From NCBI GenBank assembly GCA_029834535.1, contig JAQMWT010000396.1, positions 54,255 through 118,254 on the forward strand: a stretch of 64,000 nt of DNA. Direction: 5' to 3'. Shown piece by piece: positions 1,901 through 43,870 of this stretch (its first letter is position 1; the number at the start of each line of letters is the position of its first letter). The translations under genes and the position numbers were made by a program. Below the pieces are notes generated by a model. That model had not been told where the DNA came from. It did no database searches and saw only the letters and a program-made list of their open reading frames with translations. The DNA is from Chrysophaeum taylorii (lineage: Eukaryota > Sar > Pelagophyceae > Pelagomonadales > Pelagomonadaceae).

Positions 1901-2715
1901 GACGATCGCAGTCCCACCACCACACCTTGGAAAAAAAAAACCTGGTTGTTGATCGTCCACTTTTGGTGCCGGGTGGTGTGCTCCACGTCACAACATCGAC
2001 GTCGCAATCGGCTCGTTCTTGTGAACTTCTTCCTTCTGTTAACACCGCGTTTGAATTCCTCCTCATCATCAACATTATCCTCCACCTCCAGGTAGCGCGA
2101 CTTCGCTCATCAGACGGGGTCAGGGTCAGGCCGTCGGCCAAAGTGAATGAACGCGAAGTGAACATTGGACGAAAATTTTATGTGTTTTTTGGATCGCACC
2201 CCATTTTAGAGCCAAAAATAAGCCTCAAGCCCCCGATTAGGAACGGGTCTAAGCATTTTTTTTCACCCAGATAAAAGTCGCGCTATAATGTAATTTATGA
2301 GACTGTTTGAAATTCAACCACTGATGTTGTAGTAGTTATTAAAAGTAGCAACGGTTTATATCTAAAATCAGCCTAATAACTGGCACGTCTTTAAAGAATT
2401 TGTGCAAGATTGTTGTTGTTCAGACGACTGACTTCACAGCTAAATGTCATAAAGAAATCTACTAGCACTTTTTTAGTCAGTAACGACCGCGACTGTATGA
2501 CACTAGATCATCTTCTCGTGCGAGCGCAGCCCGATGCCCAGCGATTCTCTGTCGCGTCTCTAGCTCCGTGAACTGCTGCTCCGAAGAAGTACATAAACCA
2601 GCGTCGCATCGTCAGAGAATGCTGCTGCTGACGATAGTACGACGTCGAGGACTCGAGGAGGGCGGGTTTCCGAGGGGGTTTCCCCGACATTCGAAGAACG
2701 TCTTGCAATTCCCAG
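1901..2715. other. no gene recognised
   Basis: The left part is GC-rich and the right part (2,200-2,500) is AT-rich. No open frame on either strand shows a recognisable domain. It separates the hAT relic from the truncated chromatin-gene copy. I see no repeat or RNA gene here. Confidence 0.5.
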
Positions 2716-3337
2716 GTGCGGTGGCGATCGTGAGTGTGGATCGACGACTCTGCGACTTGGACTCCAGAAGGAGCCTCAAGCCCCGGACGTGGCTCTAGCC
2801 TTTCGAGGTCCACGTAGCTTCGCTCGCGCGGATTCATCCCGAACGATTCGCGTGGTCGAGGACCTCCAGAACCCTCGTCTCCTCGAGGTTTGCAAGACGG
2901 GAGGTGGCGTGAATGGTGGCGTACCACCTCCGACGACCGCACTTCCGCCAAGGAACTTGGAGTAAACCGCAGCAACGTGGTCCGGATGGCCAACGGCTTC
3001 CGCGCCAACGAGGTCGCCCGATTTTATCAAATCGACTTGGCGCCCGGCGTCTTCCACTGCAACAACACGTCGTTGCGTTGACTCACTGTTCACAGATCTT
3101 GCCGCGTGTTCGGGTTTGCTGTTCCCGTAATTTTCAGTTCGGTTTGTCGCGTCATAAATTTTTTTTCTTCGTCTCAACGCCGTGAGCCCGTTCGATCCCA
3201 ACGAGATCGACCGCGCTCGACTCTTGTCATCCATCCGCACGGTCTTCATCTCGAGAATCAACCCGGTATATTTCTTCTACAGACAGCGCAATTGCTATGA
3301 ACTCGTCCGACGCGACGTCATTAGCAGTCGCGTATGA
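2716..3337 (+). pseudogene. Truncated third copy of the GNAT/PHD/SANT chromatin gene (exons 8-12)
   Basis: On the plus strand this matches the 3' half of the gene at 7,040-13,450. It opens at a retained splice acceptor (CCCAG before GTGCGGTGG) and reads AVAIVSVDRRLCDLDS, parallel to AVAIANASVARVLHDFDS of exon 8. It then matches exon 9 (GFIPND, KELGVNRSNVVRMA, VARFYQIDL), exon 10, exon 11 (NAVSPFDPNEIDRARL) and exon 12 (RNCYELVRRDV beside RNRYELFLLF). Intron positions are conserved, for example an acceptor at TTCTACAGACAG before the exon-12 block. Exons 1-7 and 13 are absent and frames are broken in exon 9, so it is a pseudogene. It lies opposite in strand to the two large copies and is much more diverged, so it is an older duplicate. 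Confidence 0.75.
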
Positions 3338-6357: not shown

Positions 6358-7002
6358 TCAACTTTCGAGGCCCCAGTGGGCCTCCAAGGCGCCGAGGACG
6401 CGGTGGATGGCGGTGGCTCCGGAGAGGGGGTAGGTGGAGATCGAGACCATGTCGAGCATGTTGTCCTCTTTGTCTATTGACCCCGAAGCCATAGCCCCGA
6501 AAACAAAGGCGACTGGACCTTCTGGCAGCGATGCGGCGAAGTGGTGCGGCGTGTAGCGCGTCCCGGCTTTAGAAAAGCCGTAGGTCGCCGTGCCCGCGGG
6601 CAAGGGAGCGGGGTTTTTAATAATTCGAAGCAGAACAGTTCCGTCCGTCGCTTTCACTTTTTTTCGCTGTAAAAGTTGTGCGAACAGACCAGCGAATCGC
6701 TTGTACGTCCTCGGAATTCGCGTCTCTGGGTGCACTTCGATCAAAACGCGCTGCCGCGTTCGGACGTAGACCCGTAGCTTGCCGGCTTTGCTCAAGGGAG
6801 AGTCCAAACAAGCCATCAACTCTTGATGGACGATGTCCGGGCGAGATTCCGATCTCCCATGCTTCGCGAGAACCGATCCGTGGTCGTCGCCGTTCAGGAG
6901 CGTTAGTTCCTTCTTGGTCTTCACGAGTTCGAGGGACGCGAGTTCCAGGATGACGTACACGGCTCGCTCATCATCGCTCCTCTTCCGCTTCTTCGACATC
7001 AT
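6358..7002 (-). CDS. EMG1: EMG1/Nep1 rRNA pseudouridine N1-methyltransferase
   Basis: The 214-residue protein is collinear with the SPOUT methyltransferase EMG1 (Nep1), which acts in the nucleolus on a pseudouridine of 18S rRNA during small-subunit assembly. Visible family signatures, in order, are LASLELVKTKKELTLLNGDDH near residue 20, SRPDIVHQELMACLDSPLSKAG near 52, RVLIEVHPETRIPRTYKRF near 85, LLRIIKNP near 125, GPVAFVFGAMASG near 165 in the cofactor region, and SISTYPLSGATAIHRVL before the C-terminal WG. Length is normal for the core enzyme and the N-terminal tail is short and basic (KKRKR). Two adjacent ATGs start the frame and I take the first. It is intronless and its stop lies about 3 kb from any other firm gene. 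The next upstream gene on the same strand ends 38 bp away, at 7,040. All conserved blocks are intact, so it should be functional. Confidence 0.95.
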   Translation of the reverse strand: MMSKKRKRSDDERAVYVILELASLELVKTKKELTLLNGDDHGSVLAKHGRSESRPDIVHQELMACLDSPLSKAGKLRVYVRTRQRVLIEVHPETRIPRTYKRFAGLFAQLLQRKKVKATDGTVLLRIIKNPAPLPAGTATYGFSKAGTRYTPHHFAASLPEGPVAFVFGAMASGSIDKEDNMLDMVSISTYPLSGATAIHRVLGALEAHWGLES

Positions 7003-7039
7003 CCGACACTTACCCTTTAAGGGTTAATTTCAACCTTTC

Positions 7040-10000
7040 TTACAATCCGACGACCCGCACCTTCTTCCTGTAGGCGGCCAGTTGAGTCTGTGCCTGCCTC
7101 CGGTTCAGTCCATGTTTCCCTATGATGACGTCGAGGTCGGCGAAGACGCCATCCTTCGGGAGACTCGTCGATGACCAAGAATGGATGGTGCTCGCAAACC
7201 ACGCCCAGAGCTCGTCCCTCGCTTCTTTCGAGATCTTGCTGGCGCGTCCCGAAGAAATTCCCGATGCACCACCAGCAGCAGCAGCAGCGGAACCAATCGC
7301 GACCGATGGTGCGGCGGACGTTGTTGCGACGGCTCCCGTCGCGGCGGTCGCTGGTTTAAGAAGCGCTCGTTTTGGTGCCCTGCAACGGACGTGACGTGTT
7401 GTTTCGTCGTCACGAGAGACGCGCGTGGGCTTCTTATTGGAAGTGACGGTCTTCGTGGCGGGCTTCTTGGAGACGGTGGGCTTCTTCGCGGCGGCTTTTT
7501 TGCCTCGAGATTGCTTCTTTTTGGAGAGCCTGACGCTCCAATTGATGCCGTTTCTTTTGCGCCCGTCGCGTCGGACTTCGCCATTCTGCTTCAAGAGCTG
7601 CTGCTTCTTGTGCTTCCTGCGCGGTGTGATGGTATAAGGTAGCACAAAAGATCATGACACCGTTTATGGTTTTACCTCTCCTCAAGGATCACGCGCGCAC
7701 GACGTTGTTTGAACAACAGGAAAAGTTCGTAGCGATTGCGCCTTTGTGAAAGAAAAAAAAATAAAAAGCGGCTTGATTGTCGATGAAAACTCCGCGAGTA
7801 TGTGAATCACAAGAGTCGCGCGCGGTCGATCTCGTTGCGTACGGCGGGATCGAACGGGCTCACGGCGTTGAGGTATCTACGCAAACGTCGTAAAATTGGA
7901 GACGACGATCACGAATTTCAGATGTTTCTCGAGAAGCACTGCAACGCACGGGATCAGCAGCCCGAGCAAGCGGCAAACGAAGATTATCTGTGAACAAGAG
8001 GATGCGCGTCGAAGATGAATCGTTGCAGGGAAAGGCAGGACGCTGGCACGAGCTAAGTCGATTTGATAAAATCGGGCGACCTTGAGGCTGTCGTTGACGC
8101 GGGAGTTGATTCCGAAGCCGTAGGCCGGCCATGCGAAGCGGACCATACTGTCGGATTTTATCCCAAGCTCCTTGGGCGTGCGGTCGTCGAACCGGTCCGT
8201 GAGGCGAACGGGTACGCCACCTCCGGCACCACCTCTCCCTTTGCAAACCTCGAGGATCGCGACGAGGATCTGCATTGCCTCGAGCACGCTCCTCGGATCG
8301 TTCGGGATGAAACCGTGTGAGCGAAGCTACGGGGATGTCGAAAAGGTTAGGTCCAAATAAGCAATAGAGTGACAGAATCTGGAAAAAACAACGACCAACG
8401 CTCCCAAAAAAATCATCATCTCGAGATTCATTCAAGACGCGGGTTGTTGTTGTCAAGGACAATCTTCTCGACGTAGATCAACACCTCGACGATCGGCCCG
8501 CGCTCCAGCACGCGCCTTTCGCGAAACAGTCCCGGTATGGTCCACTTCTGGACCTTGCGGTCCCACCCGATGCCGTTGTAGCACGTCCGGGACTTGAGGT
8601 TCCTAATGGAGTCGAAATCGTGGAGAACTCGAGCCACACTCGCGTTCGCGATCGCCACAGCACCTGCGTGGTTGGAAGATGGTCGAATTGGGGTAAAAAA
8701 AATGGAAACTACTGATGTAAGACGCTGTGCGAGTTGTTGACGATAAGTGACGCGCGCGACGTGAGGCAACATCTGCGCAGCGCGACACGAATCAGTAAGT
8801 CGAGTGAGAGAATAGCGACGCGGCCATATGGTGTCCGACATCCTCGAGCGTTGCGGTTCCGACATCCTCGAGCGTTGCGGTTGCGCCTGTGATACACGAG
8901 ACCATTCATCTGCGAGTTGAACACCACGAATGCTAGAGCAACCAAGACTCACCGGGTGCCGTGAGCTCGAGGACGCGCGCCACTTCGGGCTCGATGCTCC
9001 ACTGTTCGAGCTGCTGCCGCGCCGCCGCAAGCGTGAGCGTCTGAGCGCGAGCCCACGCTGCCTGTTGGTGGTTTTATGAAGAAGAGCTGGTGCACGAGGA
9101 TGGAGGTGGACTCTTTGGTCAGACCTTGTTGCGACGTGCTGGAGATTGTCCAATCACACTCGAAGGCTTCTTCCGGAGGTGTTCGGTGTCGACCCACCGG
9201 CGCCAGACAACGACCTGGTTCGGGACGAGGTCTTCGAGAGTCTCGGGGAACGACTGCTGCTCGTCGGTGACCATCGATGATGATGATGATAACTCGCGCT
9301 CGTGTTGTTCGCGCACGGCAATACGTTCGCGGATTTCGGTGGACGTGAGGACCTCGCCAGTAGTTTGGTTGATGCGGATGACCTTGTCGACGGGCTCCGG
9401 AGAAGGTGTCGACGAGTGGTCCTCCTCCTCTTGATCACCACGCGTTGGTTCGAAGTCGTCGTCGAAATCAAAAGCTTCGGCGGGAAGACGCGCGTACGAG
9501 CCGTCGGGGCGGCGGAGGCGATGCATCGCGAGCACCGCTTCGACGACGGCGTCCTCGAAGGCTTGCTGGGCTCCAAAGTACGTCTCGTACATGTCGAACT
9601 CTCGCCGACGTCCAATGACACGATCTCGTACGTAGCCCACCATCGTCTCCTCCTCGGACTGGTCGCGCGTCAGCTCTTGCGCTTCGAACGCAAAATAGGC
9701 ATCGAGCGAGGCCTCGTGGTCCTCGAGACTGAGTTGGTGAATCGGCACGTCGGGATCGACAGTGGACGGAAGTTCCCACGTCCCTCCTTCGAGATCGTAT
9801 ACGTGATTCCACGCGTCGCACTTCGCGATCTCCTTCTGCAAAGCCTCTCGTCGTGCCTGGAGGTCTGCCTCGCGCTGCGCGACGTACTCGGCTTTGAAGG
9901 TGCGGTAGTAGTGGTTAGCGCATTGCAGATCGGTCCGATTGCCGACTTCGCGCGCGACCAATTTCCAGTTCTTTGCGTCGTATTTCTTGACGGCAGCGAC

Positions 10001-13000
10001 AAACCGCTCATGCTCGTCGGGTGTCCAACGGATTTGAGGAGCACGGAGACCAGCGGCACGCCGACCAACACGACCACCACGGATATCTCTTCTCCCCTCC
10101 TCCTCCTCCTCCTCCTCCTCCTCTATCTCCTTTTCTTCGACACACTCCTCGTCGTCGCGATCGTCGTCACCTCTTGGCGCGTCCTCGTCTTTCGCGGTAT
10201 CAGAATCTTTGTCGTCGTCATTATCTTCCTCGTCGTCGTCTTCCTGGTCCACGAATTCCGCGGGAAAGTCTTCGACGTCTGCCATCGCGGCACGAGGACG
10301 TTCGTAGCCCATCGGCGGCTCGTTTGCGATTCGTCGATCTTCGCGAGCGCGAGCTGCCTGGACTTCGTCGACGGACTCAACCCCGTGATTTCGCTCGGCC
10401 AATTCGGGGTACGCTGTGAGCTGGTCGGGCGTATGTTGTGCGTCGAGCGACTCGGCGGCAGCAGTACTAACATCCAGTTCCAACGTGGCCGGCACGGGTC
10501 GCGGAGTTTGTTGACGAGTGTTCGCAATAGCGTCGTCTCCTTTGTCTGGAAGGAACTGGTCCATCTCTCGTCCGATGCTCTCGGAGTGAGTGTCCAGCGC
10601 AACTGGTTCACCGGCGTTCGACTCGTGGCGGTTCTGCGCGGCGACGTCACGAGTATGTTGCTGCTCGGCGGCCTCATCATCATCCGACATGGCGGCGACG
10701 ACGACAGCACCATCGACGGGAGGAACTTGGGCCTCTTGGGGGAGCGGTGTCGGTTCGTCGTTGTCCAACAACATTTCGAGATGCTCTTCGAAAGCGGGCG
10801 GCGGCGGCAAGAGCGAGGGTGGCGGGAGCGGCGGGAGACCGGCGGGGATGCGGTCGGCGTGTTCGTTCGATACCGCGGACCACGTCAAGCTCGCGGCGTC
10901 GAGGAGATGTGAAGCGTGGCGTTTCGACTCATAGTCGGACCACGGCGTCTCGAGAGCGTCGATACCGTCGCACGACACACCGAGCGATTGCAGACGACTT
11001 CGGAGGTCTCGGCGGTCGGCGAGACGCATCGGACGCGTGATTTGGGTCGAAAGAAGCATCACCGCCGGGAGCGCGCCGGGAAACTCGATCTGGGGCACGA
11101 ACAAAATGTCGGGGTCGTCGGGGTGGTGGACGATCCGAAGCTTCAAAGCAACGCCGCGGACTTGGCAAAGTACCGAACAGAACATAGCGCCCACCGGTCG
11201 CACCCCCGGAATCAAATTGAACCGCATGTAGTAGTTGAGGCAGGAGATGTGGGCGCCGTTCGAGCACAATCCGCGGCGGCCGTTGTTCGAGTAAGTATCG
11301 ATGAGGTACGCCGAGCACGCGTAGAACTCGCCTTTCCCGCCCTCGGGCGGCTTGCCGCAGATGATGCCTAGGTTGGAACGAAGTAAATAATCTGGAAACG
11401 ACGAGGACGACGCTGGGAATCGGTGAGACAGAGAAGACTCTGCGTGTTAGTTTGCCCCGCGGATGCGCGGACGATCGCGCTTCTGATGGTCTTCCGGATC
11501 TGCTGTTGCTCGCGCGGTGGTAGCAGTTCGAGCTCGTTTGTGCGCGGCACCAACGTGTAGTGGGCGAGCACGATGAAGAGTCCGGCGACGGTTTGCGGCG
11601 CGCCCACGGCGGCGGCGGCTTCGACAACAGAAGGATAGGCGATGCCATCGGGACCGACGTAGCAGTCCTCGCCGGTGATGGTTTTCTCGACGTAGAACCC
11701 CATCTCTTGGAGCCGCGCAACTATGCGAGGAACTTGGTCAAATGACGCGGACGATCGACGAGTGCTCACGCATTTGTAGCTGCGGGGAGATCGATCTTTT
11801 ACGAGACGAAAGAGTGTGACCGTACCTCGGTGAGGAGTCGCGCGCGGCGGCCGTCGACGACGTAGACGAAGACGCCGTGGGGGCGTTCGGGTCGGACTTC
11901 GGCGTTTGGGCCGGGTTCTCGCGAGACGGGTCGGCGCGGGTCGGTTTGGCTGACGCCTTCGCTGGCACGTTGCTTGGCGGCGGCGGCGCGCGTGCGGCCT
12001 CGCGAGTCGACGCGGGCCTCGACGACCGACTTCATGACGTCCTCGATGCGCGTCTCGGCCTTGAAGTGCTGGATCGGGAACTTGTCGCGTAGGGCGCCTG
12101 ATGTGTAACGGGTGAGCTGGGCGGTCACGGATACGCACGAATCTCCGGAACTGTCGAAGCTTGGAAGATGCGAAGGAAGCGCGCACAGAGCTCGGTCCAG
12201 TTTTGGGCTCGCAGCGTGTGCCTAACAGAGTAGCCCATTGGCGGCGTCGAATCGTCGGCAGCGAAGATCGGCGATTGGTTCCTGCGAAGTAACAATATAA
12301 CGCCGGTGAAGGAACGAAAGCGGCGGCGGTTCGAGGACGCGGAGAGGTTTGAACCCAGCGGCGAAGTTGTACGAGTTCTGGAGAACGATCGAGACAGACT
12401 TTTTTTCGTTGAAATGCGCGGCCTTGTTTGCGATCCAAAACGGCACGCTCGCTCGCTCGCCGAGCGTCGCGGTGAAGATCACGCTGTGGAACGAGTGGAA
12501 CGCCGCGAGCTCGAGCAGCGCGGCGATAAAACGCGTGCCTACGTAGGAGGGGCGTCGTGTAAAGAGGGGCGCGACATACTCGAGCAAATCAACGTTGACA
12601 GAGGGAAAAAGAGTATCAAAACGAGTTAGAAAAAATCGCGAATTCGACGCCAAAATATAAATTCTCACCGAGCTTGAGACCGGGCCGCTTCCTCAAGTCC
12701 GCGCGTACGACGAAGGCGTGGACGTACAAGATCTTGTAGTTGCCGTGGGGCTGGGTTGAATGCATGGCCTCGACCACGGCGATCGCGATCAGCCCGAGGG
12801 TGTCGTCGACGAGCGCGATCGCCTGAGGCACGAGAGTGGTTGTGGATCGATGCGAACACAGCAGCAGAAGGGCGAAACGTGCGGCGCGCGACGACACGGA
12901 GAGCGAAATCAGACGGTGGTGGCGGTGCGCGCTGGAGTCCGGGGGCGCGACACCCAAAAAAACAGACCCTCGGCTCACGCGAGAAGACGTGCCGCGGGAC

Positions 13001-13450
13001 GCGTGAGCGACCGCGACAACCAGCAGCAGAGTCCACCATGCAGCGCGCGACGAGGATCACGACGAGCCGCGGCGTGTGCGACAGACAACGAGGGCCTCGT
13101 CACTCTCTCGAGATACGGCCCCGCCGATTTGCCGCGCGAGCACGAAAACAACAACAACAACAACAACAGCGCGGGTGACGCACCTGGCACTCCTCGAAGG
13201 GCTTGAGTCGCCGCAGGACCATGCGGAAGTGTCGCCGGTTCCCCCAGAACGCCTGCGTGCGGGGTGACGGTAGTTCGGAGAATCGACAAGTCACCTCGGC
13301 CAGAAGCTCGACGGCCTCGCGACGGCGCGACCGCGGGAGAAGCTCGAGGCGGAGACCCAGGATCGGGATGTTCGCGGCGCGGAAGGTGTCGTCGGTGAAG
13401 AAGTGGTAGTGGACGCTCGCGCGCTTGGCGTTGGCCGCGGCGGTCGGCAT
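7040..13450 (-). CDS. Multi-exon chromatin protein, GNAT-like/PHD-like/SANT/homeodomain-like, copy 1
   Basis: I propose 13 exons: 13184-13450, 12669-12822, 12339-12538, 11803-12221, 11430-11764, 9125-11367, 8953-9061, 8461-8663, 8042-8326, 7950-7987, 7811-7876, 7676-7741 and 7040-7616. All have GT..AG introns and phases agree throughout, giving 1,653 aa. Exons 7-13 are firm, because the third copy at 2.7-3.3 kb keeps the same junctions. Exons 3-5 are less certain. Joining exons 2 and 3 gives VVRADLRKRPGLKLG then TRFIAALLELAAFHS, which resembles the acetyl-CoA motif of GNAT acetyltransferases. Exon 6 opens with CIICGKPP, CSNGAHISC and FCSVLC, a PHD-like zinc finger. A Glu/Asp-rich run precedes a SANT domain (RWTPDEHERF..KNWKLVAREVG, about residues 903-950). 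The last exon is Lys-rich and ends in a homeodomain-like helical block (ELWAWFASTI, RRQAQTQLAAYRKK). I infer a nuclear chromatin-binding and possibly acetylating role. No family name is assigned. Confidence 0.7.
7040..13450 (-). repeat. Segmental duplication, unit 1
   Basis: This block is repeated at 36,149-42,615 in the same orientation. Identity is very high from about 7,640 to 13,440, including introns. It drops sharply in the last exon (7,040-7,610), in two internal patches (about 9,810-9,950 and 10,580-10,640), and immediately upstream of the start codon at 13,450. The unit coincides with one gene. Confidence 0.95.
13145..13170. repeat. (AAC)n microsatellite in intron 1 of copy 1
   Basis: A CAA/AAC tract lies just inside intron 1. 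The matching tract in copy 2 (about 42,304-42,332) is two units longer, so this is a length difference between otherwise almost identical introns. Confidence 0.85.
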
Positions 13451-14880
13451 GGCGTGACGGTTCGTTTCGACGAGAGCTTGGTTATATGTGAACTCTGATT
13501 ATGTTGATGGCTTCGCACACAGGTCGTGTTCGCGAATCATGCAATACATCCTCAAAGTTGTATTGTCGAATTCGTTGCCGCAGATATGATGAAAGCCCGT
13601 CGTGAAGTGATTTTTGGAAGGCGTGTTTGATAGCCGTTGAAGGGGATTCGAATATTAACGACGAAGTTAATGCGAGCCGTTCAGCTGTGACTAGACCGTT
13701 CCGCCTCACCTCGCAAGGAACCAACAGAATTTCTGACTTCACAGACTTTCACTCTGGCATAGAAAGACGCGGGCTACTATCTCGTCTACACGATATGTAT
13801 GTTTGCGATGGAGGACGGCGCCTAACACGCTTGCTCCCGGCCGTCCCGGCGTGAGACGGTGCTTCCCGGCTGGCCGGTGAGCACCCGGAAAAAAAGTCCG
13901 CGCTGAGATGGGGTTCGCTCGGCGCTACAATGGTCGTCGAAGCGGAGTTGAATCGAACATTCGAGGGCTTTAGGATTCGCGATCTAACTCATAAGTAGTC
14001 TCATCTACTCCGAAAACACGTACATATCTCAATAAGAGTCTGATGTCGAGGGCAGCGTCACAGACCAACAGGTGGTGCTAGTAGTATCCATTATTACAAA
14101 GCCGAAGAAATTAGGAGGGAGGAGAGGCCGTCCGTCCCATTTTTAATGCCACGCTCGACACGGATGTTTGCGCGTCAGGATTTTACTTCACAGTTTTCGG
14201 GACGTCGTTCCTTTAGAGAACGATGGTCAAACCGAGTGACGCAAAGGACTCTACCGAACTGGTCCTGGGGGGACAGAAAACCGCCAACAAGGGAGGCTAT
14301 GGTAGAGTCGTAGGGGGGTGTCTCTCTGTGCGCCCACGACGAGTGATGGGCACCGAGTGGTCAGCGGAGAAGTCAGCGAAATACATAGGCGGCGAAAAGA
14401 GAGGCAACTTTAAGGGGTAGGTACCCTGGGCCGAGCCCAAGGAAAAGAGGTCAAGTACTTTCTTTGCAATGTCGACCGTAAGATCGAGATACGGCGACCT
14501 CCCCCGTCTCGCCGGTGGCTCGCATGACTCGATCGGCGTTGTCCCGGCCGAGAGCTCTGCGACGAGCGCATCCTCTCGATCCACATCGTGTTCCACCACT
14601 CTGCTGGGGAGCTCGACGTCTTGCGCATGAATGGGGTGTTCTTGCTTCTTAGAGTAGGCGCGACAATAAGTGTTATTAATCCCCGCCAACGGGGTTTCAT
14701 CTCGTAGGCCCCAGTTGACCTCGACTTGACCACCATCGCGAGGCGGTGACACCAAGGGGTTTTTTTTCTAGAAGAGCAAACTTCAAGGTCAAACTCAACG
14801 CCGAGGAGATCTATAAGATCTGTCGGGATACGGTTTCGTTTCGCAGAATGTTGTTCCGTGCTGGTCGTGTGTGTCGAGGA
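13451..14880. other. Upstream region of copy 1, no firm gene
   Basis: Directly upstream of the start codon the match to copy 2 falls away, apart from an island near 13,540-13,590. Between 13,640 and 14,880 I see no recognisable protein on either strand. A minus-strand frame at 14,297-14,755 is open but has no ATG start and no family features. Decayed FG-GAP coding sequence begins near 14,900. Confidence 0.4.
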
Positions 14881-30281: not shown

Positions 30282-33200
30282 TTATCCGCGCGCATTATTC
30301 GAAGAACGGAGTTTGCGACGGTACTCGTTGACCGGCGGGTTAGTCGTTGGCTTCCGGTGGCGCTTGGCCCCCGGCGTGTTGGTCACGTCCGTTATCTTTT
30401 TTGAATCAAACTTGGCGAGCGCCTCCTCGAGGTCGGCGATGTGGAGGCCGCGCTCGAGGATCTGCGCGTCGCGCGCGGCGCACTCGCGAGCGAGTGTTCC
30501 CTTGAGAACGTCCGTCTCGTCCTTGAGGGCGGACAACTTGCGCTTGAGGGCGACGGCCTCGCCAACCTGGCGCTCCGCGTACTTCACTTCCGCTCGACTC
30601 GCCTCTAGCGCCGCCTCTGCGATTTCCTTTGCAGCCGACGCGGCACCGAACGCCGCTGCCGACGCCTTGTCGGCGGCGTCCCGGGCCGAGGCGACTTCGG
30701 CATTTGCCTCCGCGGCGTCGGCGACCTCGCGCCGAGCAGCCTCCGCGGCGCGCTGCTTCTCGGCCAGCGCCGCGGCGAGAGCGGCCTCTCCTGCCTCGGC
30801 GGCATCGCGCTGCTTTTCGGCCTCGTGCAGCGCTTCGGTGCCAGCGGCAGCAGCCTCCGCGGCATCGGCAGCGCGCTGCTTTTCGGCCTCGAGCTCGGCG
30901 ATTGAGGCTTTCTTCTGGTCGAGAATCACAGCCTCGTACTGAGCACGTAGAGCGGAGGTGGCGGCGGCAACAGCGGCCTCGGTGGCGAGTGTGGCACGCT
31001 GCTTCTCAGCCTCGAGCTCGGCAACGGCGGCTTGGTTGTGGTTGGAAAGACTCTCCTCGTACTGAGCACGTAGAGCGGAGGTGGCGGCGGCAACAGCGGC
31101 CTCGGCGGCGAGTGCGGCGCGCTGCTTCTCAGCCGCGAGCTCGGCAACGGCGGCTTGCTTTTGATTGGATAACAAGTTCTCGTGCAGCGCCGCGGTCGCA
31201 GCGGCCGTGGCCTGTGCGGCATCGACAGCAAGTTGCTTTTGAGCCTCGAGCTCCGCGACGACGGCTTGCTTCTGGGTGGAGAGCGCGGCCTCGTGCAGCG
31301 CCGCAGTCGTAGCGGCAGTGGCCTCTGCAGCATCGACAGCGCGTTGCTTTTGAGCCTCGAGCTCAACGATGGCGGCTTGCTTCAGGTCCGAAAGTGCAGC
31401 CTCGTGCAGTGCTGCGGTCGCAGCGGCAGTAGCCTTTGCAGCATCGACAGCGCGTTGCTTTTGAGCCTCGAGCTCAACGATGGCGGCTTGCTTCAGGTCC
31501 GAAAGTGCAGCCTCGTGCAGTGCTGCGGTCGCAGCGGCAGTAGCCTGTGCAGCATCGACAGCGCATTGCCTCTCAGTTTCGAGCTCAGCGACGGCGGCTT
31601 GCTTCAGGTCCGAAAGTGCAGCCTCGTGCAGTGCTGCGGTCGCAGCGGTAGTAGCCTGTGCGGCATCGACAGCGCATTGCCTCTCAGTTTCGAGCTCAAC
31701 GACGGCGGCTTGCTTCAGGTCCGAAAGTACAGCCTCGTGCAGTGCTGAGGTCGCAGCGGCAGTAGCCTGTGCAGCATCGACAGCGCGTTGCTTCTCAGTT
31801 TCGAGCTCTGCGACGGCGGCTTGCTCCAGGTCCGAAAGTGCAGCCTCGTGCAGTGCTGAGGTCGCAGCGGCAGTGGCCTTTGCAGCATCGACAGCGCGTT
31901 GCCTCTCAGTTTCGAGCTCAGCGACGGCGGCTTGCTTCAGGTCCGAAAGTGCAGCCTCGTGCAGTGCTGAGGTCGCAGCGGCAGTGGCCTTTGCAGCATC
32001 GACAGCGCGTCGCTTCTCAGTTTCGAGCTCTGCGACGGCGGCTTGCTTCAGGTCCGAAAGTGCAGCCTCGTGCAGTGCTGCGGTCGCAGCGGCAGTAGCC
32101 TGTGCGGCATCGACAGCGCATTGCCTCTCAGTTTCGAGCTCAGCGAAGGCGGCTTGCTTCAGGTCCGAAAGTGCAGCCTCGTGCAGCGCTGCGGAGGCTG
32201 CGGCAGTGGCCTTTGCAGCATCGACAGCGCATTGCCTCTCAGTTTCGAGCTCAGCGACGGCGGCTTGCTTCAGGTCCGAAAGTGCAGCCTCGTGCAGCGC
32301 CGCGGAGGTAGCGGCAGTGGCCTCTGCAGCATCGACAGCGCGTTGCTTTTCAGTTTCAAGCTCAGCGACGGCGGCTTGCTTCAGGTCCGAAAGTGCAGCC
32401 TCGTGCAGTGCTGAGGTCGCAGCGGCACTGGCCTCTGCAGCATCGGAAGCGCGTTGCTTCTCAGTTTCAAGCTCAGCAACGGCGGCTTGCTTCAGGTCCG
32501 AAAGAGCAGCCTCGTGCAGTGCCGCGGAGGCAGCGGCAGTGGCCTGTGCGGCATCGACAGCGCGTTGCTTTTGAGCCTCGAGCTCAACGATGGCGGCTTG
32601 CTTCAGGTCCGAAAGTGCAGCCTCGTGCAGCGCCGCGGAGGCAGCGGCAGTGGCCTCTGCGGCTTCATCTACAGCGCGTTGTTTTTCAGCCTCGAACGAC
32701 GCCGCAGCGGTAGCAGCAGTGGCCTCTGCGGCGAGTGCGGCGCGCTGCTTTTCAGTCCCAAGCTCAGCAGCAGCGGCTTGGCTGTGGTCTTCGGAGAGCC
32801 TTGCCTCGTAGTGAGCACGTAGGGCCGCGGTGGCGGCAGCAGCGGCCTCCGCGGCATCGGCGGCGCGCTGCTTCTCGGCCTCGAGCTCAGCAACGGCGGC
32901 TTGCTTCAGGCCCGAAAGCGCGGCCTCGTGCAGCGCCGCGGAGGCAGCGGCAGTAGCCTCTGCGGCTTCATCTATAGCGCGTTGCTTTTCAGCCTCGAAC
33001 GACGCCGCAGCGTCAGCAGCAGTGGCCTCTGCGGCGAGTGCGGCGCGCTGCTTTTCAGTCCCGAGCTCAGCAGCAGCGGCTTGGTAGTGGTCTCCGGAGA
33101 GCCTTGCCTCGTAGTGAGCACGTAGGGCCGCGGTGGCGGCAGCAGCGGCCTCCGCGGCATCGGCGGCGCGCTGCTTTTGAGCCTCGAGCTCAGCAACGGC

Positions 33201-36095
33201 GGCTTGCTTCAGGCCCGAAAGCGCGGCCTCGTGCAGCGCTGCGGAGGCTGCGGCAGTAGCCTCTGCGGCTTCATCTACAGCGCGTTGTTTTTCAGCCTCG
33301 AACGACGCCGCAGCGGCAGCAGCAGTGGCCTCTGCGGCGAGTGCGGCGCGCTGCTTTTCTGTCCCGAGCTCAGCAGCAGCGGCTTGGCTGTGGTCTCTGG
33401 AGAGCCTTGCCTCGTAGTGAGCACGTAGGGCCGAGGTGGCGGCAGCAGAGGCCTCCGCGGCATCGGCGGCGCGCTGCTTCTCAGTTTCCAGCTCAGCCGA
33501 GGCGGCTTGCTTCAGGTCCGAAAGCGCGGCCTCGTGCAGCGCCGCGGTGGCGGCAGCAGCGGCCTCGGCGACTTCATCTACAGCGCGTTGCTTTTCAGCC
33601 TCGAACGACGCCGCAGCGGCAGCAGCAGTGGCCTCTGCGGCGAGTGCGGCGCGCTGCTTTTCAGTCCCGAGCTCAGCAGCAGCGGCTTGGTAGTGGTCTC
33701 CGGAGAGCCTTGCCTCGTAGTGAGCACGTAGGGCCGAGGTGGCGGCAGCAGCGGCCTCGGCGGCATCGACAGCGCGTTGCTTTTGAGCCTCGAGCTCAGC
33801 CGAGGCGGCTTGCTTCAGGCCCGAAAGCGCGGCCTCGTGCAGCGCTGCGGAGGCTGCGGCAGTAGCCTCTGCGGCTTCATCTACAGCGCGTTGCTTTTCA
33901 GCCTCGAACGACGCCGCAGCGGCAGCAGCAGTGGCCTCTGCGGCGAGTGCGGCGCGCTGCTTTTCAGTCCCGAGCTCAGCAGCAGCGGCTTGGTAGTGGT
34001 CTCCGGAGAGCCTTGCCTCGTAGTGAACACGTAGGGCCAAGGTGGCGGCAGCAGCGGCCTCCGCGGCATCGGCGGCGCGCTGCTTTTGAGCCTCGAGCTC
34101 AGCAACGGCGGCTTGCTTCAGGCCCGAAAGCGCGGCCTCGTGCAGCGCTGCGGAGGCTGCGGCAGTAGCCTCTGCGGCTTCATCTACAGCGCGTTGTTTT
34201 TCAGCCTCGAACGACGCCGCAGCGGTAGCAGCAGCAGTGGCCTCTGCGGCGAGTGCGGCGCGCTGCTTTTCTGTCCCGAGCTCAGCACCAGCGGCTTGGT
34301 AGTGGTCTCCGGAGAGCCTTGCCTCGTAGTGAGCACGTAGGGCCAAGGTGGCGGCAGCAGCGGCCTCCGCGGCATCGGCGGCGCGCTGCTTCTCGGCCTC
34401 GAGCTCAGCCGAGGCGGCTTGCTTCAGGTCCGAAAGTGCAGCCTCGTCCAGCGCTGCAGTGGCGGCAGCAGCGGCCTCTGCGGCTTCATCTATAGCGCGT
34501 TGCTTTTCAGCCTCGAACGACGCCGCAGCGGCAGCAGCAGCAGTGGCCTCTGCGGCGAGTGCTGCGTGCTGCTTTTCAGTCCCGAGCTCAGCAGCAGCGG
34601 CTTGGTAGTGGTCTCCGGAGAGCCTTGCCTCGTAGTGAGCACGTAGGGCCGCGGTGGCGGCAGCAGCGGCCTCGGCGGCATCGGCGGCGCGCTGGTTCTC
34701 GGTCTCGTGGTCGGCAAGCACGGCGTGCATCTGGTCGCGAAGCGCGGCCTCGCGGAGCGCGTAGGCGGCAGCGGGCTCGGCGGCGTCGCGTTGGTCCTCC
34801 TCGGCCTCGTAGTCAACAACAACAACCGCGGGTCGGCGGTGATCGCGAAGGAGAGCCGCGGCGGCCGCCGCGTCCGCCGCGTCGGCGGCGTCCGAAGCGC
34901 GTTGCATTTCAGCTTGGACCATGGCCTCGACAGCCGCAGCAGCATTCGTAGGCTGGCGAGTTTTTTTGCAAGAAAAAGATTCGACGACCAAGGCCGCTTC
35001 TCGTATCGCGGTTTCTCGGTCGATGTTTGCTCTTTCGAGGTCCGCGCGAAGCGTGGAAATCGTATCCCGCGTTTTTGCCCGGTCGTTTGCGAAATCCTCG
35101 ACGAGCGCCGAGGCCTCCGCGAGGGCGAGGGAGAGGTCGTCTTGGGATGCGTTGAAATCGACAATTCGCTGGTCTTCGAGATCCACAATCTTTCGTATCA
35201 AATCCGCGGTCAAACGAGCGGCTCTTCGGGCGACGCGAACGCGACTATAACTCGAACGCAAGAGGGCGTCCGCCCGCATCGCGCGCTTTGAGGAGGATTT
35301 TTTGGGTGGCGGGGGTTTCGCGACCATGCCTCTCGCCCGTTGCGCGAAACGGAACGTCGCGACGTCGCGCGTCGAAGCGCACGCGAGAAGAACGGAATTC
35401 GAAGACGCGAGAGAAGACCGGAGAAGACGCGTTAAAACGCTGTCGCGGAAGGGCGGCCACCCCCCCGTCGATAGGGCGGTGATGACGCGTCCGAGCGCGA
35501 GGAGGCTTCGGTTTATGAATTTCGATTCCTCCCGCGTTGCTTTTTCCGAACCCGCCAAGTCGACCATTTTGAGGTTTCCAAATTCGAAGATAAAATGCGA
35601 CCGCGAGCTCTGGCGATTCCCTTCTGTCGCAGCCACGGCGCGGCGTTCGAGGGCGAGGTTCAGCAAATTCCGCGCTTCGATTTTGCTTGCGGCGGTCACC
35701 CGCGACGGTCGTTTCACTTTTTCGTTCGTTAATAAATCAAAAATCGTTTCGTTATAAATTTCGAGAAAAGACGCTTCCGCGGAAACGATTCGGTCGATGG
35801 CGCGCTCCATGATTCCCGTCATCGTGTACGTCTTCCCCGCCCCCGTCCTGCCGTACGCCATGATGAGCGCGGGCTTCCCGGAAATCGCTTCGTCAACAAC
35901 CGCCGAAACCTCCTCAAAAACATCCTCCTGAGACCCCGGGGCCAAAACGCGGTCGAATTCGAACAACGTGGAACAACATTCGCCACCGTCGTTTCGGTTT
36001 CGGACGACGACGCCGTTCTTCTTCCCGTCTGCGACACCCACCCCTCCTGACTCCTCCGGACGAGGACGACTCCTCACGCGCAATATCGTCCGCAT
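30282..36095 (-). CDS. Giant N-terminal-motor kinesin with alanine-rich repetitive coiled-coil tail
   Basis: A single exon encodes 1,937 residues, starting at the ATG at 36,095. The motor occupies about residues 1-265. It has the P-loop GRTGAGKT, switch I NRQSSRSH, switch II VDLAGSE, the NRSLLALGRVITAL helix and PFRDSVLTRLLRSSL. The motor is about 60-70 residues shorter than usual, because surface loops between the P-loop and switch I and after switch II are trimmed. All nucleotide-contact motifs remain. Residues about 300-1,830 are a nearly uninterrupted Ala/Glu/Lys/Arg helix built from two repeat classes, of 101 and 37 residues. The C-terminus (KKITDVTNTPGAKRHRKP) is basic and resembles a nuclear-localisation or phosphorylation tail. 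It should be a microtubule motor with a very long rod. The subfamily cannot be assigned. Confidence 0.92.
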   Translation of the reverse strand: MRTILRVRSRPRPEESGGVGVADGKKNGVVVRNRNDGGECCSTLFEFDRVLAPGSQEDVFEEVSAVVDEAISGKPALIMAYGRTGAGKTYTMTGIMERAIDRIVSAEASFLEIYNETIFDLLTNEKVKRPSRVTAASKIEARNLLNLALERRAVAATEGNRQSSRSHFIFEFGNLKMVDLAGSEKATREESKFINRSLLALGRVITALSTGGWPPFRDSVLTRLLRSSLASSNSVLLACASTRDVATFRFAQRARGMVAKPPPPKKSSSKRAMRADALLRSSYSRVRVARRAARLTADLIRKIVDLEDQRIVDFNASQDDLSLALAEASALVEDFANDRAKTRDTISTLRADLERANIDRETAIREAALVVESFSCKKTRQPTNAAAAVEAMVQAEMQRASDAADAADAAAAAALLRDHRRPAVVVVDYEAEEDQRDAAEPAAAYALREAALRDQMHAVLADHETENQRAADAAEAAAAATAALRAHYEARLSGDHYQAAAAELGTEKQHAALAAEATAAAAAAASFEAEKQRAIDEAAEAAAAATAALDEAALSDLKQAASAELEAEKQRAADAAEAAAAATLALRAHYEARLSGDHYQAAGAELGTEKQRAALAAEATAAATAAASFEAEKQRAVDEAAEATAAASAALHEAALSGLKQAAVAELEAQKQRAADAAEAAAAATLALRVHYEARLSGDHYQAAAAELGTEKQRAALAAEATAAAAAASFEAEKQRAVDEAAEATAAASAALHEAALSGLKQAASAELEAQKQRAVDAAEAAAAATSALRAHYEARLSGDHYQAAAAELGTEKQRAALAAEATAAAAAASFEAEKQRAVDEVAEAAAAATAALHEAALSDLKQAASAELETEKQRAADAAEASAAATSALRAHYEARLSRDHSQAAAAELGTEKQRAALAAEATAAAAAASFEAEKQRAVDEAAEATAAASAALHEAALSGLKQAAVAELEAQKQRAADAAEAAAAATAALRAHYEARLSGDHYQAAAAELGTEKQRAALAAEATAADAAASFEAEKQRAIDEAAEATAAASAALHEAALSGLKQAAVAELEAEKQRAADAAEAAAAATAALRAHYEARLSEDHSQAAAAELGTEKQRAALAAEATAATAAASFEAEKQRAVDEAAEATAAASAALHEAALSDLKQAAIVELEAQKQRAVDAAQATAAASAALHEAALSDLKQAAVAELETEKQRASDAAEASAAATSALHEAALSDLKQAAVAELETEKQRAVDAAEATAATSAALHEAALSDLKQAAVAELETERQCAVDAAKATAAASAALHEAALSDLKQAAFAELETERQCAVDAAQATAAATAALHEAALSDLKQAAVAELETEKRRAVDAAKATAAATSALHEAALSDLKQAAVAELETERQRAVDAAKATAAATSALHEAALSDLEQAAVAELETEKQRAVDAAQATAAATSALHEAVLSDLKQAAVVELETERQCAVDAAQATTAATAALHEAALSDLKQAAVAELETERQCAVDAAQATAAATAALHEAALSDLKQAAIVELEAQKQRAVDAAKATAAATAALHEAALSDLKQAAIVELEAQKQRAVDAAEATAATTAALHEAALSTQKQAVVAELEAQKQLAVDAAQATAAATAALHENLLSNQKQAAVAELAAEKQRAALAAEAAVAAATSALRAQYEESLSNHNQAAVAELEAEKQRATLATEAAVAAATSALRAQYEAVILDQKKASIAELEAEKQRAADAAEAAAAGTEALHEAEKQRDAAEAGEAALAAALAEKQRAAEAARREVADAAEANAEVASARDAADKASAAAFGAASAAKEIAEAALEASRAEVKYAERQVGEAVALKRKLSALKDETDVLKGTLARECAARDAQILERGLHIADLEEALAKFDSKKITDVTNTPGAKRHRKPTTNPPVNEYRRKLRSSNNARG
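31150..32690 (-). repeat. 111-bp coding tandem repeats, about 13 units
   Basis: Each unit encodes 37 residues of the form HEAALSDLKQAAVAELETEK plus QRAVDAAQATAAATAAL. Unit starts fall at exact 111-bp steps, for example at 31,371 and 31,482 and on to 32,592. Most units differ only by scattered substitutions, so they were recently amplified or homogenised. Confidence 0.9.
32690..34705 (-). repeat. 303/306-bp coding tandem repeats, 7 units
   Basis: Each unit encodes about 101 residues containing HYEARLSGDHYQAAAAELG and a copy of the 37-residue motif. The LSGDHYQ marker recurs at 32,778, 33,081, 33,384, 33,687, 33,990, 34,296 and 34,602. Steps are 303 bp, with two of 306 bp caused by one added alanine codon. 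The array sits between the motor-proximal rod and the 111-bp array. Confidence 0.9.
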
Positions 36096-36148
36096 TTTCC
36101 TGGGGTCGTCGTCTAACGGTTTCAGGGTTTAGAGCTTTTTTTTGTTAC

Positions 36149-39100
36149 TTATTCATTCCTAAACCCTCTTTCTTCGTGATTTTTTTGTTTGTAGGCAGCC
36201 AACTGCGTCTGTGCCTGCCTCCTGTTGAGTTTGTGTTTCGTGATCAGGGCGTCGACCTCGGGGAAGACGCCCACCTTCGGGAAACTCGCCGATGGCCCCC
36301 ACGTGTGAATCGTGCTCGCGAACCACGCCCAGAGCTCCTCCTTTGCTTCTTTTGAGATCTTTATGGCGCGTCCCGAAGAAGCCGCTGCAGTAGGACCAAC
36401 GGGACCAATCATCACCGTTGATGCGACAGCTTCGGTGGTGGCGACGACCGCAGCGGACACAGGTTCTTCAGGCTCTCGCTTGGCCCTGCGCAGCAAACAA
36501 CGAAGGTGACGGTTTGTCGTCGCGACGCGCATACGACGAAGGCTTCTTCGACGCGGGCTTCTTCTTGAAGGCGACGGCCTTCACAGCCGACTTCTTGGAG
36601 ACGGTGGCCTTCTTCACTACTGCGGTTTTGCCTCGAGAATTCCCCTTCTTCTTCTTCTCGGAGAGCCTCTTTAGCCAGTTGATGCCGTTTCTTTTGCGGC
36701 CGTCGCGTCGGACTTCGCCATTCTTCATCAAGAGCTGCTGCTTCTTGTGCTTCCTGCGCGGTGTGATGGTATAAGGTAGCACAAAAGATATAACACACGA
36801 CACTGTTGCTGGTTTTACCGCTCCTCAAGGATCACGCGCGCACGACGTTGTTTGAACAACAGGAAAAGTTCGTAGCGATTGCGCCTGTGTGAAAGAAAAA
36901 AAAATAAAAAGCGCTTTGATTGTCGATGAAGACTCCGCGAGTATGTGAATCACAAGAGTCGCGCGCGGTCGATCTCGTTGCGTATGGCCGGATCGAACGG
37001 GCTCACGGCGTTGAGGTATCTACGCAAACGTTGCAAAATTGGAGACGACGATCACGACGACAGATGTTTCTCGAGAAGCACTGCAACGCACGGGATCAGC
37101 AGCCCAAGCAACCAGCAAGCGAAGATTATCTGTGAACAAGAGGATGTGTGTCAAAGACGAGTCATTGCAGGGAAAGGCAGGACGCTGGCACGGGCTAAGT
37201 CGATTTGATAAAATCGGGCGACCTTGAGGCTGTCGTTGACGCGGGAGTTGATTCCGAAGCCGTAGGCCGGCCATGCGAAGCTTGTCATGTTGCCGCGTCC
37301 TACCCCAAGCTCCTTGGCCGTGCGGTCGTCGAACCGATCCGTGAGGCGAACGGGTACACCACCTCCACCTTTAGGGCCACCTTTTTTTTTGCAAACCTCG
37401 AGGATCGCGACGAGGATCTGCAGGGCCTCGATCACGCTCCTCGGATCGTTCGGGATGAAACCGTGCGACCGAAGCTACGTGGATGTCGAAAAAGTTAGGT
37501 CCAAATAAGCAATAGAGTGACAGAATCTGGAAAAAACAACGACCAACACTCCAAAAAAAAATCATCATCTCGAGATTCATTCAAGACGCGGGTTGTTGTT
37601 GTCAAGGACGATCTTCTCGACGTAGATCAACACCTCGACGATCGGCCCGCGCTCCAGCACGCGCCTTTCGCGAAACAGTCCCGGTATGGTCCACTTCTGA
37701 ACCTTGCGGTCCCACGCGATTCCGTTGTAGCACGTCTGGGACTTGAGGCTTCTTATGGAATCGAAGTCGTCGAGTTGTCGACCCACACTCGCGTTCGCGA
37801 TCGCCACAGCACCTGCGCGGTTGGAAGATGGTCGAATTGGGGTAAAAATCTTGGAAACTACTGATGTAAGACGCTGTGCGAGTTGTTGACGATAAGTGAC
37901 GCGCGCGACGTGAGGCAATATCTGCGCAGCGCGACACGAATCAGTAAGTCGAGTTTTAGCATAGCGACGCGGCCATGGTGTCCGACATCCTCGAGCGTTG
38001 CGGTTGCGCCTGTGATACACGAGATCATTCATCTGCGAGTTGAACACCACGAATGCTAGAGCAACCAAGACTCACCGGGTGCCGTGAGCTCGAGGACGCG
38101 CGCCACTTCGGGCTCGATGCTCCACTGTTCGAGCTGCTGCCGCGCCGCCGCAAGCGTGAGCGTCTGAGCGCGAGCCCACGCGGCCTGTTGGTGGTTTTAT
38201 GAAGAAGAGCTGGTGCACGAGGATGGAGGTGGACTCTTTGGTCAGACCTTGTTGCGACGTGCTGGAGATTGTCCAATCACACTCGAAGGCTTCTTCCGGA
38301 GGTGTTCGGTGTCGACCCACCGGCGCCAGACAACGACCTGGTTCGGGACGAGGTCTTCGAGAGTCTCGGGGAAAGACTGCTTCTCCGCGTTGACCATCGA
38401 TGATGATGATGATAACTCGCGCTCGTGTTGTTCGCGCACGGCAATACGTTCGCGGATTTCGGTGGACGTGAGGACCTCGCCAGTAGTTTGGTTGATGCGG
38501 ATGACCTTGTCGACGGGCTCCGGAGAAGGTGTCGACGAGTGGTCCTCCTCCTCTTGATCACCACGCGTTGGTTCGAAGTCGTCGTCGAAATCAAAAGCTT
38601 CGGCGGGAAGACGCGCGTACGAGCCGTCGGGGCGGCGGAGGCGATGCATCGCGAGCACCGCTTCGACGACGGCGTCCTCGAAGGCTTGCTGGGCTCCAAA
38701 GTACGTCTCGTACATGTCGAACTCTCGCCGACGTCCAATGACACGATCTCGTACGTAGCCCACCATCGTCTCCTCCTCGGACTGGTCGCGCGTCAGCTCT
38801 TGCGCTTCGAAGGCAAAATAGGCATCGAGCGAGGCCTCGTGGTCCTCGAGACTGAGTTGGTGAATCGGCACGTCGGGATCGACAGTGGACGGAAGTTCCC
38901 ACGTCCCTCCTTCGAGATCGTATACGTGATTCCACGCGTCGCACTCCAGGTACGGTTTGTCGAAGGCCAACCACCTCGCCTTGCGTTCCTCCTCACGAAT
39001 CGCGTTTTGAATCGACTCACGCTGCGCGACGTACTCGGCTTTGTAGGTCCAGCAGTAGTGATCCTTACATTGGGCAGCAGTTCGCGTGCCGACTTCGCGC

Positions 39101-42100: not shown

Positions 42101-42615
42101 GGGGCGCGACACCCAAAAAAACAGACCCTCGGCTCACGCGAGAAGACGTGCCGCGGGACGCGGGCACGACCGCGACAACCAGCAGCAGAGTCCACCATGG
42201 AGCGCACGAGGAAGAGCACGACGAGCCGCGGCGTGTGCGACAGACAACGAGGGCCTCGTCGCTCTCTCGAGATACGGCCCCGCCGATTTGCCGCGCGAGC
42301 ACGAAAACAACAACAACAACAACAACAACAACAGCGCGGGTGATGCACCTGGCACTCCTCGAAGGGCTTGAGCCGCCGCAGGACCATGCGGAAGTGTCGC
42401 CGGTTCCCCCAGAACGCCTGCGTGCGGGGTGACGGTAGTTCGGAGAATCGACAAGTCACCTCGGCCAGAAGCTCGACGGCCTCGCGACGGCGCGACCGCG
42501 GGAGGAGCTCGAGGCGGAGACCCAGGATCGGGATGTTTGCGGCGCGGAAGGTGTCTGTCGTGAAGAAGTGGTAGTGGACGCTCGCGCGCTTGGCGTTGGC
42601 CGCGGCGGCTGGCAT
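36149..42615 (-). CDS. Multi-exon chromatin protein, GNAT-like/PHD-like/SANT, copy 2 with C-terminal frame disruption
   Basis: Collinear with copy 1 at 7,040-13,450, with the same exon-intron plan. Exon 1 is 42,349-42,615 (start ATG at 42,615), the large exon 6 begins at 40,526, and an acceptor near 36,895 precedes the Arg-rich exon 12. The PHD-like and acidic parts are almost unchanged. The SANT helix-3 region differs: TRTAAQCKDHYCWTY against NRTDLQCANHYYRTF in copy 1. The following segment, up to ECDAWN, is replaced. In the last exon, copy 2 carries four extra bases relative to copy 1 near 36,500-36,530. The basic frame ends at 36,468, and the homeodomain-like block (ELWAWFASTI, RRQAQTQLAAYKQK) lies in another frame. 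Either the C-terminus is lost or a 25-nt GT..AG stretch is removed. The frame is also open upstream of the chosen ATG. Confidence 0.65.
36149..42615 (-). repeat. Segmental duplication, unit 2
   Basis: Direct repeat of 7,040-13,450, offset about 29.11 kb at the left end and 29.17 kb at the right. It lies immediately upstream, in plus-strand coordinates to the right, of the kinesin start. See unit 1 for the pattern of identity. Confidence 0.95.
42304..42332. repeat. (AAC)n microsatellite in intron 1 of copy 2
   Basis: The equivalent of 13,145-13,170, two repeat units longer. Confidence 0.85.
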
Positions 42616-43870
42616 GACTCGGTTGCAGGGCTTGGTTCTTCTGTCCACAGAGTGTTTTTGGCGGGAGTTGGCTTCGCACGGTCGTTCGCGTTTGTTCGTT
42701 ACCAGCTGCCGTTTGATGACGTCGTATACATCCTCGAAGTAGTATTGTTGAATTCGTTGCCGCAAGTGGGTCTTGAAAGCTCGTTGAACTGGACTGATTT
42801 TTGAATGATTTAGAACGCGAACCGTGATTCTAAGATATCCGTTTGTGGCCGTTGAGGAATGGTCGGAGATTGTTGCCGCGTGGTGGTGGTGTCGGGGGTG
42901 AGGGGGTGGTCTCTCGGCAGGCGCTCGCCTTCTCGCCATACCCACTCTGTTGCGGCGTCAGTGGAGGCAATAGAAGGGCCGGAGCGAGGGTCGAGAGTCG
43001 CGGCCCGTTGATAGCTTCTAGATCCGCGACTTTACTGGTGGAATCCCGTTTGTCCAAGGGACGTCTACAGCGTCGCCATTGCTCGCGAAGCCAACCTACA
43101 ACATGAAGTAGTACGCCGCAACGCGCGACGGAACACGTGTGGACAGGCCTGTTGACCAGAAATGAAACAACAACCATCGCAAGAGCAGCGTGACGACCTA
43201 GTAGGGTCCGACGTGCCCACGGGCGAGGATGTGATGGCACTACGCGGTCTCTTGACGCACGAACGCAGCTGCTCGCATCCAAACACCTCGGCGCCGCCGT
43301 TTTTGTGGTCGCGCGATGGCGCAGACCATGACAAGGGGCCTGTGGATGCTGCGTTGTGGCGAGAGACGGGGGGCGAGCTCTTCTCGTGCATCCTTCGAAT
43401 CCTGACTATCATCATCGCTCGGCCAGTCACGAGCCAACGGCGACGATACCTTGACACAGCGCGCTCGGCCATTCTCCGTCACGAGACGTCCTCCCACGGG
43501 CGAAGAGAGGGGAGGGACCCCAGCGACGTGGCTGATGGGGATCCTTTTCATACACCGCCACGTCAACACAAGAACTGCAGAGAGTTTGTCGGGAGGAAAG
43601 TAATAGTGGTCAAGAGGAACACCGGTTGTCCTCGCCACATCTTATTACCCGAGACAACCACGACGTGGAAGGTCTGCAGTCCAACGCGTGAAAAAAATCA
43701 ATCGGTCCAAGAGCGCAGACAGACTATATTGCAACCTTGGCGAAAGTAAAGGGAATCGACACGTTCTCAACAATTTAATGAGTGAAACATGAAAGTACTC
43801 AGCGTTCATTTTATGTCGTCGACGGAGACACGACGAAGCTCACGTTCTTGAGAGCAAATCGCTTTCGTCG
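42616..43870. other. Upstream region of copy 2, no firm gene
   Basis: A block near 42,725-42,775 resembles 13,540-13,590 upstream of copy 1. The remainder shows open frames on both strands without domains. The longest is on the plus strand (43,162-43,749). Confidence 0.4.
43162..43749 (+). CDS. Hypothetical ORF, 195 aa
   Basis: An ATG-started frame with a polar, Arg/Thr-rich product lacking recognisable motifs. A minus-strand frame overlaps most of it, which weakens the coding case. It is not duplicated elsewhere in the window. Its function is unknown. Confidence 0.2.
   Translation: MKQQPSQEQRDDLVGSDVPTGEDVMALRGLLTHERSCSHPNTSAPPFLWSRDGADHDKGPVDAALWRETGGELFSCILRILTIIIARPVTSQRRRYLDTARSAILRHETSSHGRREGRDPSDVADGDPFHTPPRQHKNCREFVGRKVIVVKRNTGCPRHILLPETTTTWKVCSPTREKNQSVQERRQTILQPWRK

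Follow-up and report, generated by a model that had tools for sequence, protein, structure and literature searches.

A duplicated Myb-domain gene

The window, by which we mean the whole stretch of 64,000 nucleotides that was analysed (55.7% G+C), contains a duplicon whose two copies lie in the same orientation at a spacing of about 29.1 kb, both with minus-strand genes. The units and their long coding exons are as follows.

7,069-13,616, minus strand: duplicon copy 1, the whole homologous unit (blastn/MAFFT against 36,190-42,803)
36,190-42,803, minus strand: duplicon copy 2, the whole homologous unit (blastn/MAFFT against copy 1)
9,122-11,368, minus strand: long coding exon of the Myb-domain gene, copy 1 (open frame; the acceptor at 11,369 was placed by eye)
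38,245-40,527, minus strand: long coding exon of the Myb-domain gene, copy 2 (open frame)

Across the core of the duplicon (8,903-13,340) we counted 119 substitutions in 4,438 aligned columns. The exon around the divergent patch described below has diverged by about 0.5% between the copies, in agreement with an earlier note on this DNA, which had called the two loci almost identical on both sides of such a patch. The proteins encoded by the long exons share 95% identity; the three gaps in the exon alignment (24, 6 and 6 bases) are all multiples of three, and the frames remain open in both copies. Gene models outside the long exon were read by eye from open frames and splice-like sites. They include an upstream gene in the duplicon (13,450-12,285, minus strand), for which a likeness to GNAT proteins, read by eye, was abandoned when no Pfam match was found. 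The last gene of the duplicon (7,000-7,720 in copy 1, 36,140-36,860 in copy 2) is open in copy 1, and the homologous frame in copy 2 shifts part-way, owing to either a frameshift or an intron. Antisense to the Myb exon, copy 1 carries a plus-strand open frame of 539 codons (9,293-10,912), probably a by-product of composition, and copy 2 a shorter one (38,416-39,753).

Elsewhere in the window we observed a kinesin motor gene on the minus strand (30,282-36,128; PF00225, E = 3.2e-43), a single open frame of 1,948 codons in which a long tail, rich in alanine and made up of internal repeats (about 72-92% alike by self-comparison), comes after the motor. A minisatellite-like tandem array with ~42-base spacing (51,420-51,792; copies about 95-97% alike) and a tandem duplication of about 1 kb (61,940-63,865; 92-97% identical) were also present.

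A divergent patch overlies helix 3 of the Myb repeat

The near-identity of the two copies is broken most strongly within the Myb repeat and the sequence that follows it.

9,902-10,030, minus strand: single Myb repeat of copy 1, residues 473-515 of P0001 (PF00249, E = 3.3e-15)
9,896-9,940 (39,043-39,087 in copy 2), minus strand: island of 15 codons encoding the cap and helix 3, NRTDLQCANHYYRTF in copy 1 against TRTAAQCKDHYCWTY in copy 2 (HMM; AlphaFold helix 62-72)
9,874-9,895, minus strand: 22 identical bases within the patch, encoding KAEYVAQ (HMM)
9,822-9,873 (38,945-39,020 in copy 2), minus strand: island in the long helix after the Myb repeat, holding a 24-base in-frame gap (HMM; AlphaFold helix 74-108)

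The patch as a whole (9,823-9,939, aligned with 38,946-39,086) contains 43 substitutions and the 24-base in-frame gap, and accounts for 43 of the 119 core substitutions. The densest 117-base window of the core held these 43 substitutions, as compared with a maximum of 14 in 5,000 permutations. A two-state HMM run on the alignment of the two copies separated a low state with 0.9% difference from a high state with 35.5% difference, and improved the log-likelihood from -1595 for a single rate to -1194 (a gain of 401), as expected of a divergence-peak pair, in which a near-identical core is interrupted by sharp islands. The permutation and the HMM together rule out an even spread of differences, and confirm the clearly different patch that had been placed at about 9,810-9,950. 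Within it, the HMM resolved two islands on either side of the 22 identical bases: 18/45 sites differ in the helix-3 island, which spans N/T to F/Y, and 26/53 in the second, the gap counted once.

PF00249 matched both copies (E = 1.1e-14 in copy 2), with scores of 56.4 bits in copy 1 and 54.6 bits in copy 2 that exceed the curated cut-off of 24.4. AlphaFold predicted the three-helix fold in copy 1 (helices 32-44, 50-57 and 62-72; mean pLDDT 67.7, and 78-90 in ten-residue blocks of residues 31-80), and a similar arrangement in a weaker model of copy 2 (helices 32-48, 50-57 and 62-72; mean pLDDT 58.1). The patch therefore covers helix 3 and runs into the helix that follows, as had been read from the sequence for SANT helix 3 and the linker after it. 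A Foldseek search with the copy 1 model returned SANT/Myb repeats as its best matches (E of about 0.01, none at or below 0.001), with a SANT domain at the top, and the best PDB sequence matches were c-Myb for copy 1 and SNAPC4 for copy 2. Each long exon contains one PF00249 stretch, and no second tandem repeat of the R2R3 or R1R2R3 MYB kind was found in the long exons or in the neighbouring open frames scanned; the count applies to the exons scanned, and further exons may carry repeats. The other searched parts of the protein gave no significant Pfam family. The gene thus resembles the c-Myb (R1, R2) and SNAPC4 repeats in its PF00249 repeat with a Trp-Trp-Tyr pattern, and differs from them in that the repeat stands alone in a protein whose remaining searched parts match no significant Pfam family.

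We aligned the two versions of helix 3 to c-Myb R2 through a shared Gln-Cys, and found that they differ at the positions equivalent to c-Myb 127, 128, 131, 132 and 135. These correspond to positions 39, 40, 43, 44 and 47, which the available part of PMC4613820 names for the R2 or R3 helix, and K128 is described as a key R2 residue in the accessible portion of PMC3240579. All five of the helix positions named in that part of PMC4613820 differ, as compared with 3/10 of the other residues of the stretch (hypergeometric p = 0.019, for a set of positions chosen post hoc, after the difference was seen). The helix residues that are unchanged are mainly fold residues. Such retention is expected between any two Myb paralogues. 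The repeat is basic in both copies (pI 9.25 and 9.04, net charge about +3), with SNAPC4, taken as a yardstick, near neutral. Judging from these sequences, the two proteins likely have different DNA targets. A role in histone or protein contact is possible as an alternative, given that the top matches of the predicted fold include SANT domains; a helix 3 unsuited to DNA contact marks a SANT rather than a DNA-binding Myb domain.

Divergent islands also occur away from the helix

The earlier note had described divergence confined to the contact helix, which our HMM segmentation does not bear out: the two copies form a mosaic in which further islands lie within the same exon, in the upstream exon and downstream.

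9,251-9,268, minus strand: coding island, VTDEQ against VNAEK (HMM)
10,586-10,678, minus strand: coding island in an acidic/Gln-rich linker, in two segments, with two 6-base in-frame gaps (HMM)
11,491-11,569, minus strand: island in the upstream exon, in three segments (HMM, one open frame)
13,003-13,058, minus strand: island in two segments, probably intronic by eye (HMM)
12,658-12,659 and 13,390-13,395: further small core islands (HMM)

Many small islands were also called at 7,588-8,858. The island at 11,491-11,569 looks coding: 8/14 of its changes are synonymous, at third positions in one open frame, and an initial assignment as intronic was dropped for this reason. When the 11 counted core islands were placed at random, at least one of them overlapped helix 3 with a probability of 0.156, and the chance for either patch island alone was about 0.02. 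Since islands survive without evident function, in the linker and where 8/14 changes are synonymous, the retention of a divergent helix may be a matter of chance.

The distribution of the islands also bears on whether the pattern is an artefact of assembly, arising from haplotype duplication or from polishing that made distinct loci alike. Our whole analysis rests on one gene pair in a single assembled sequence, which leaves room for such an error. We nevertheless regard it as very improbable: open frames are kept in both copies, with gaps that are in frame; the divergence falls in many dense islands, some of them very short; and the copies are separated by 22.6 kb of other sequence, their surroundings being joined by no other long match.

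Synonymous sites in the patch are near saturation

In the patch, dS was 1.15 and dN 0.41, giving an omega of 0.36 (95% range 0-0.85 by bootstrap, counting saturated replicates as 0). Its synonymous sites are near saturation, whereas dS outside the patch was 0.016, about 70-fold lower, and among the 645 codons that lie in none of the three coding patches there were seven synonymous and two nonsynonymous differences. We compared the patch with other parts of the locus by Fisher tests on rounded Nei-Gojobori counts. The proportion of synonymous differences (pS) in the patch, 0.57, could not be distinguished from that of the last exon in the diverged left flank described below (0.42; p = 0.33) or of the island in the acidic/Gln-rich linker (0.37; p = 0.26), and was far above that of the exon between the islands (0.017; p = 4e-16). 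The synonymous divergence of the patch is therefore old.

Diversifying selection had been proposed as one of two causes of the patch. In the form of selected point mutations that followed a recent duplication, it would be suggested by the amino acid changes, as 19/27 of the differing codons at 9,823-9,940 are nonsynonymous, eight of them in the helix-3 stretch. It is contradicted by the synonymous sites, whose dS of 1.1 in the patch stands against 0.016 in its neighbours, and we consider it the least probable of the explanations weighed here. With an omega of 0.36 and nearly saturated synonymous sites, recent positive selection is rejected, and the patch is old sequence that was moved or kept as a block, with no recent burst of selected mutations.

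The proportion of nonsynonymous differences (pN) reached 0.31 in the patch, above the 0.14 of the flank exon (p = 0.002; one flank exon was tested by codon class). This does not favour the simplest model in which the patch is a remnant of the original divergence, and would also be expected from weaker constraint or from a donor at greater distance. The ratio of nonsynonymous to synonymous differences did not differ between the patch and the flank exon (p = 0.26), and was marginally higher in the patch than in the exon between the islands (p = 0.05).

Diverged flanks indicate an old duplication

Homologous sequence continues beyond the near-identical core on both sides, and a third, partial copy lies elsewhere in the window.

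7,069-7,542, minus strand: diverged homologous left flank, last exon of the downstream gene (alignment)
13,443-13,614, minus strand: diverged right flank, upstream of the first exon (alignment)
2,713-3,303, plus strand: degenerate inverted third copy, covering only the part downstream of the Myb exon (blastn, 65-79% identity to both copies)

In the left flank 129/459 sites differ (28%), and in the right flank 72/171 (42%), the latter figure being partly near noise. The left flank is the stronger of the two, as it contains an exon that can be aligned at the protein level; the right flank is weak evidence, because 65/127 sites differ at 13,443-13,567, near noise, and homology becomes clear again only at 13,568-13,616. 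A recent duplication would end abruptly, whereas an old one that was homogenised in its middle predicts diverged flanks of this kind. From the diverged homology beyond the core we therefore conclude that the duplication is older than the identity of its core, which was homogenised later, and with such flanks no donor is needed to account for the islands.

Downstream of the Myb exon, a three-way alignment, poor in places, showed that copy 1 shares 27 sites and copy 2 shares 23 sites with the third copy. This near-equal split indicates that the downstream differences did not arise as a burst in a single copy, as expected for two old lineages, and fits remnants and imports equally. The third copy does not reach the Myb exon and so gives no polarity for the helix patch.

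No donor of the patch is found in the window

Gene conversion from another paralogue, the other cause that had been proposed, would make the patch an import: in a young or recently homogenised pair, one copy would have acquired its helix from a third Myb paralogue through a short conversion tract. The sharp edges of the patch, its near-saturated synonymous sites and its pN above that of the flank exon are all consistent with such an event, and at least one other fragment of the family exists. A donor was nevertheless absent from the 64-kb window by each of the searches made. Using tblastn with the Myb exon of each copy and with the upstream frame (E up to 1), we recovered only the two copies themselves; blastn with 7-base words (E up to 10) added the third fragment at 2,713-3,303 and nothing overlapping the patch; and the 14-mers of the patch in either copy occurred nowhere else in the window, save 11 that stem from bases shared with the other copy. 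The remaining islands would require several separate imports, whereas the old divergence already present in the flanks could supply them all. We therefore consider an import unlikely, though a block re-copied by another route could also account for the patch. As to the earlier proposal, the kind of process appears to have been right and its direction probably reversed, with the surroundings homogenised and the patch left behind, as the 28% and 42% divergence of the flanks suggests.

Discussion

The explanation that we favour, with somewhat more confidence than doubt, is that the locus is an old segmental duplicate pair, each copy with a single-repeat Myb gene, which was later homogenised over about 4.5 kb with islands of the original divergence surviving. 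An old segmental duplication would first have produced the two copies. Homogenisation, most simply by interlocus gene conversion, would then have made the core alike, and short islands would have escaped it, the largest in the core encoding helix 3 together with a portion of the following helix. The helix patch is thus probably a surviving remnant, and the other islands, too, are better read as remnants than as imports. The two proteins would recognise different DNA sites and share the rest of their sequence.

Selection may have protected the helix from homogenisation: if each helix serves a DNA target of its own, alleles that received the wrong helix by conversion would have been eliminated, leaving a divergence peak, as proposed for the red/green opsins. 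Such protection, a plausible but unproven refinement of the remnant explanation rather than an alternative to it, is in our judgement possible but tentative. The largest core island includes helix 3 almost exactly, both helices are still recognisable as Myb helices, all five helix positions named in the available part of PMC4613820 differ (p = 0.019, post hoc), and the nonsynonymous to synonymous ratio exceeds that between the islands (p = 0.05). The same ratio does not differ from that of the flank exon (p = 0.26), random placement brings at least one of the 11 core islands onto helix 3 with a probability of 0.156, and other islands lie in the acidic/Gln-rich linker and where 8/14 changes are synonymous. 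Between Myb paralogues, moreover, the surface residues of helix 3 usually vary more than core residues, which counts against selective protection. The fuller proposal, in which selection removes conversion tracts over the recognition helix and so keeps two DNA specificities, the rest of the protein being interchangeable by conversion, is slightly more doubtful still.

Divergence peaks have more than one accepted cause: the parts of PMC3924837 and PMC3728101 at hand give selection as one, and neutral suppression of conversion as another. The human red/green opsins, as described in the available text of PMC3924837, are duplicates about 24 kb apart (29 kb here) that conversion keeps alike, with a narrow divergence peak (Teshima and Innan) over function-determining residues. 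In the opsins, retention by selection is backed, in the same text, by macaque orthologues and known spectral effects, whereas in the Myb pair several islands fall outside the functional site. The Tigriopus californicus genes GOT1p1 and GOT1p2 show a similar mosaic of high and low divergence with exonic divergent islands, for which the accessible portion of PMC3728101 leaves a neutral alternative open. That system differs in encoding an enzyme, in being studied through population samples and, by the same source, in having divergent regions without fixed indels; ours is a Myb-domain protein seen in one assembly, with a 24-base gap in an island. No published Myb pair of this kind was among the literature matches listed, as far as the portions of those sources at hand go, which does not prove its absence from print. 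Searches for relatives in IMG/VR (two scans) and GTDB contigs (one scan), each with two short peptides as queries, and in phages (tblastn) gave none, a result of little weight as these collections are non-eukaryotic.

If the helix is a chance remnant, the pair still illustrates that a mosaic left by conversion may look like a deliberate exchange of helices, and that the dN/dS of such a patch tells how old the duplication is rather than whether selection acted recently. If selection protects the helix, the locus would be a small natural experiment on how two duplicates come to differ in DNA-binding specificity while conversion keeps the remainder alike. Were two specificities indeed kept by selection, the pair would parallel the opsin exon-5 case among transcription factors, its specificity residing in a 45-base module.
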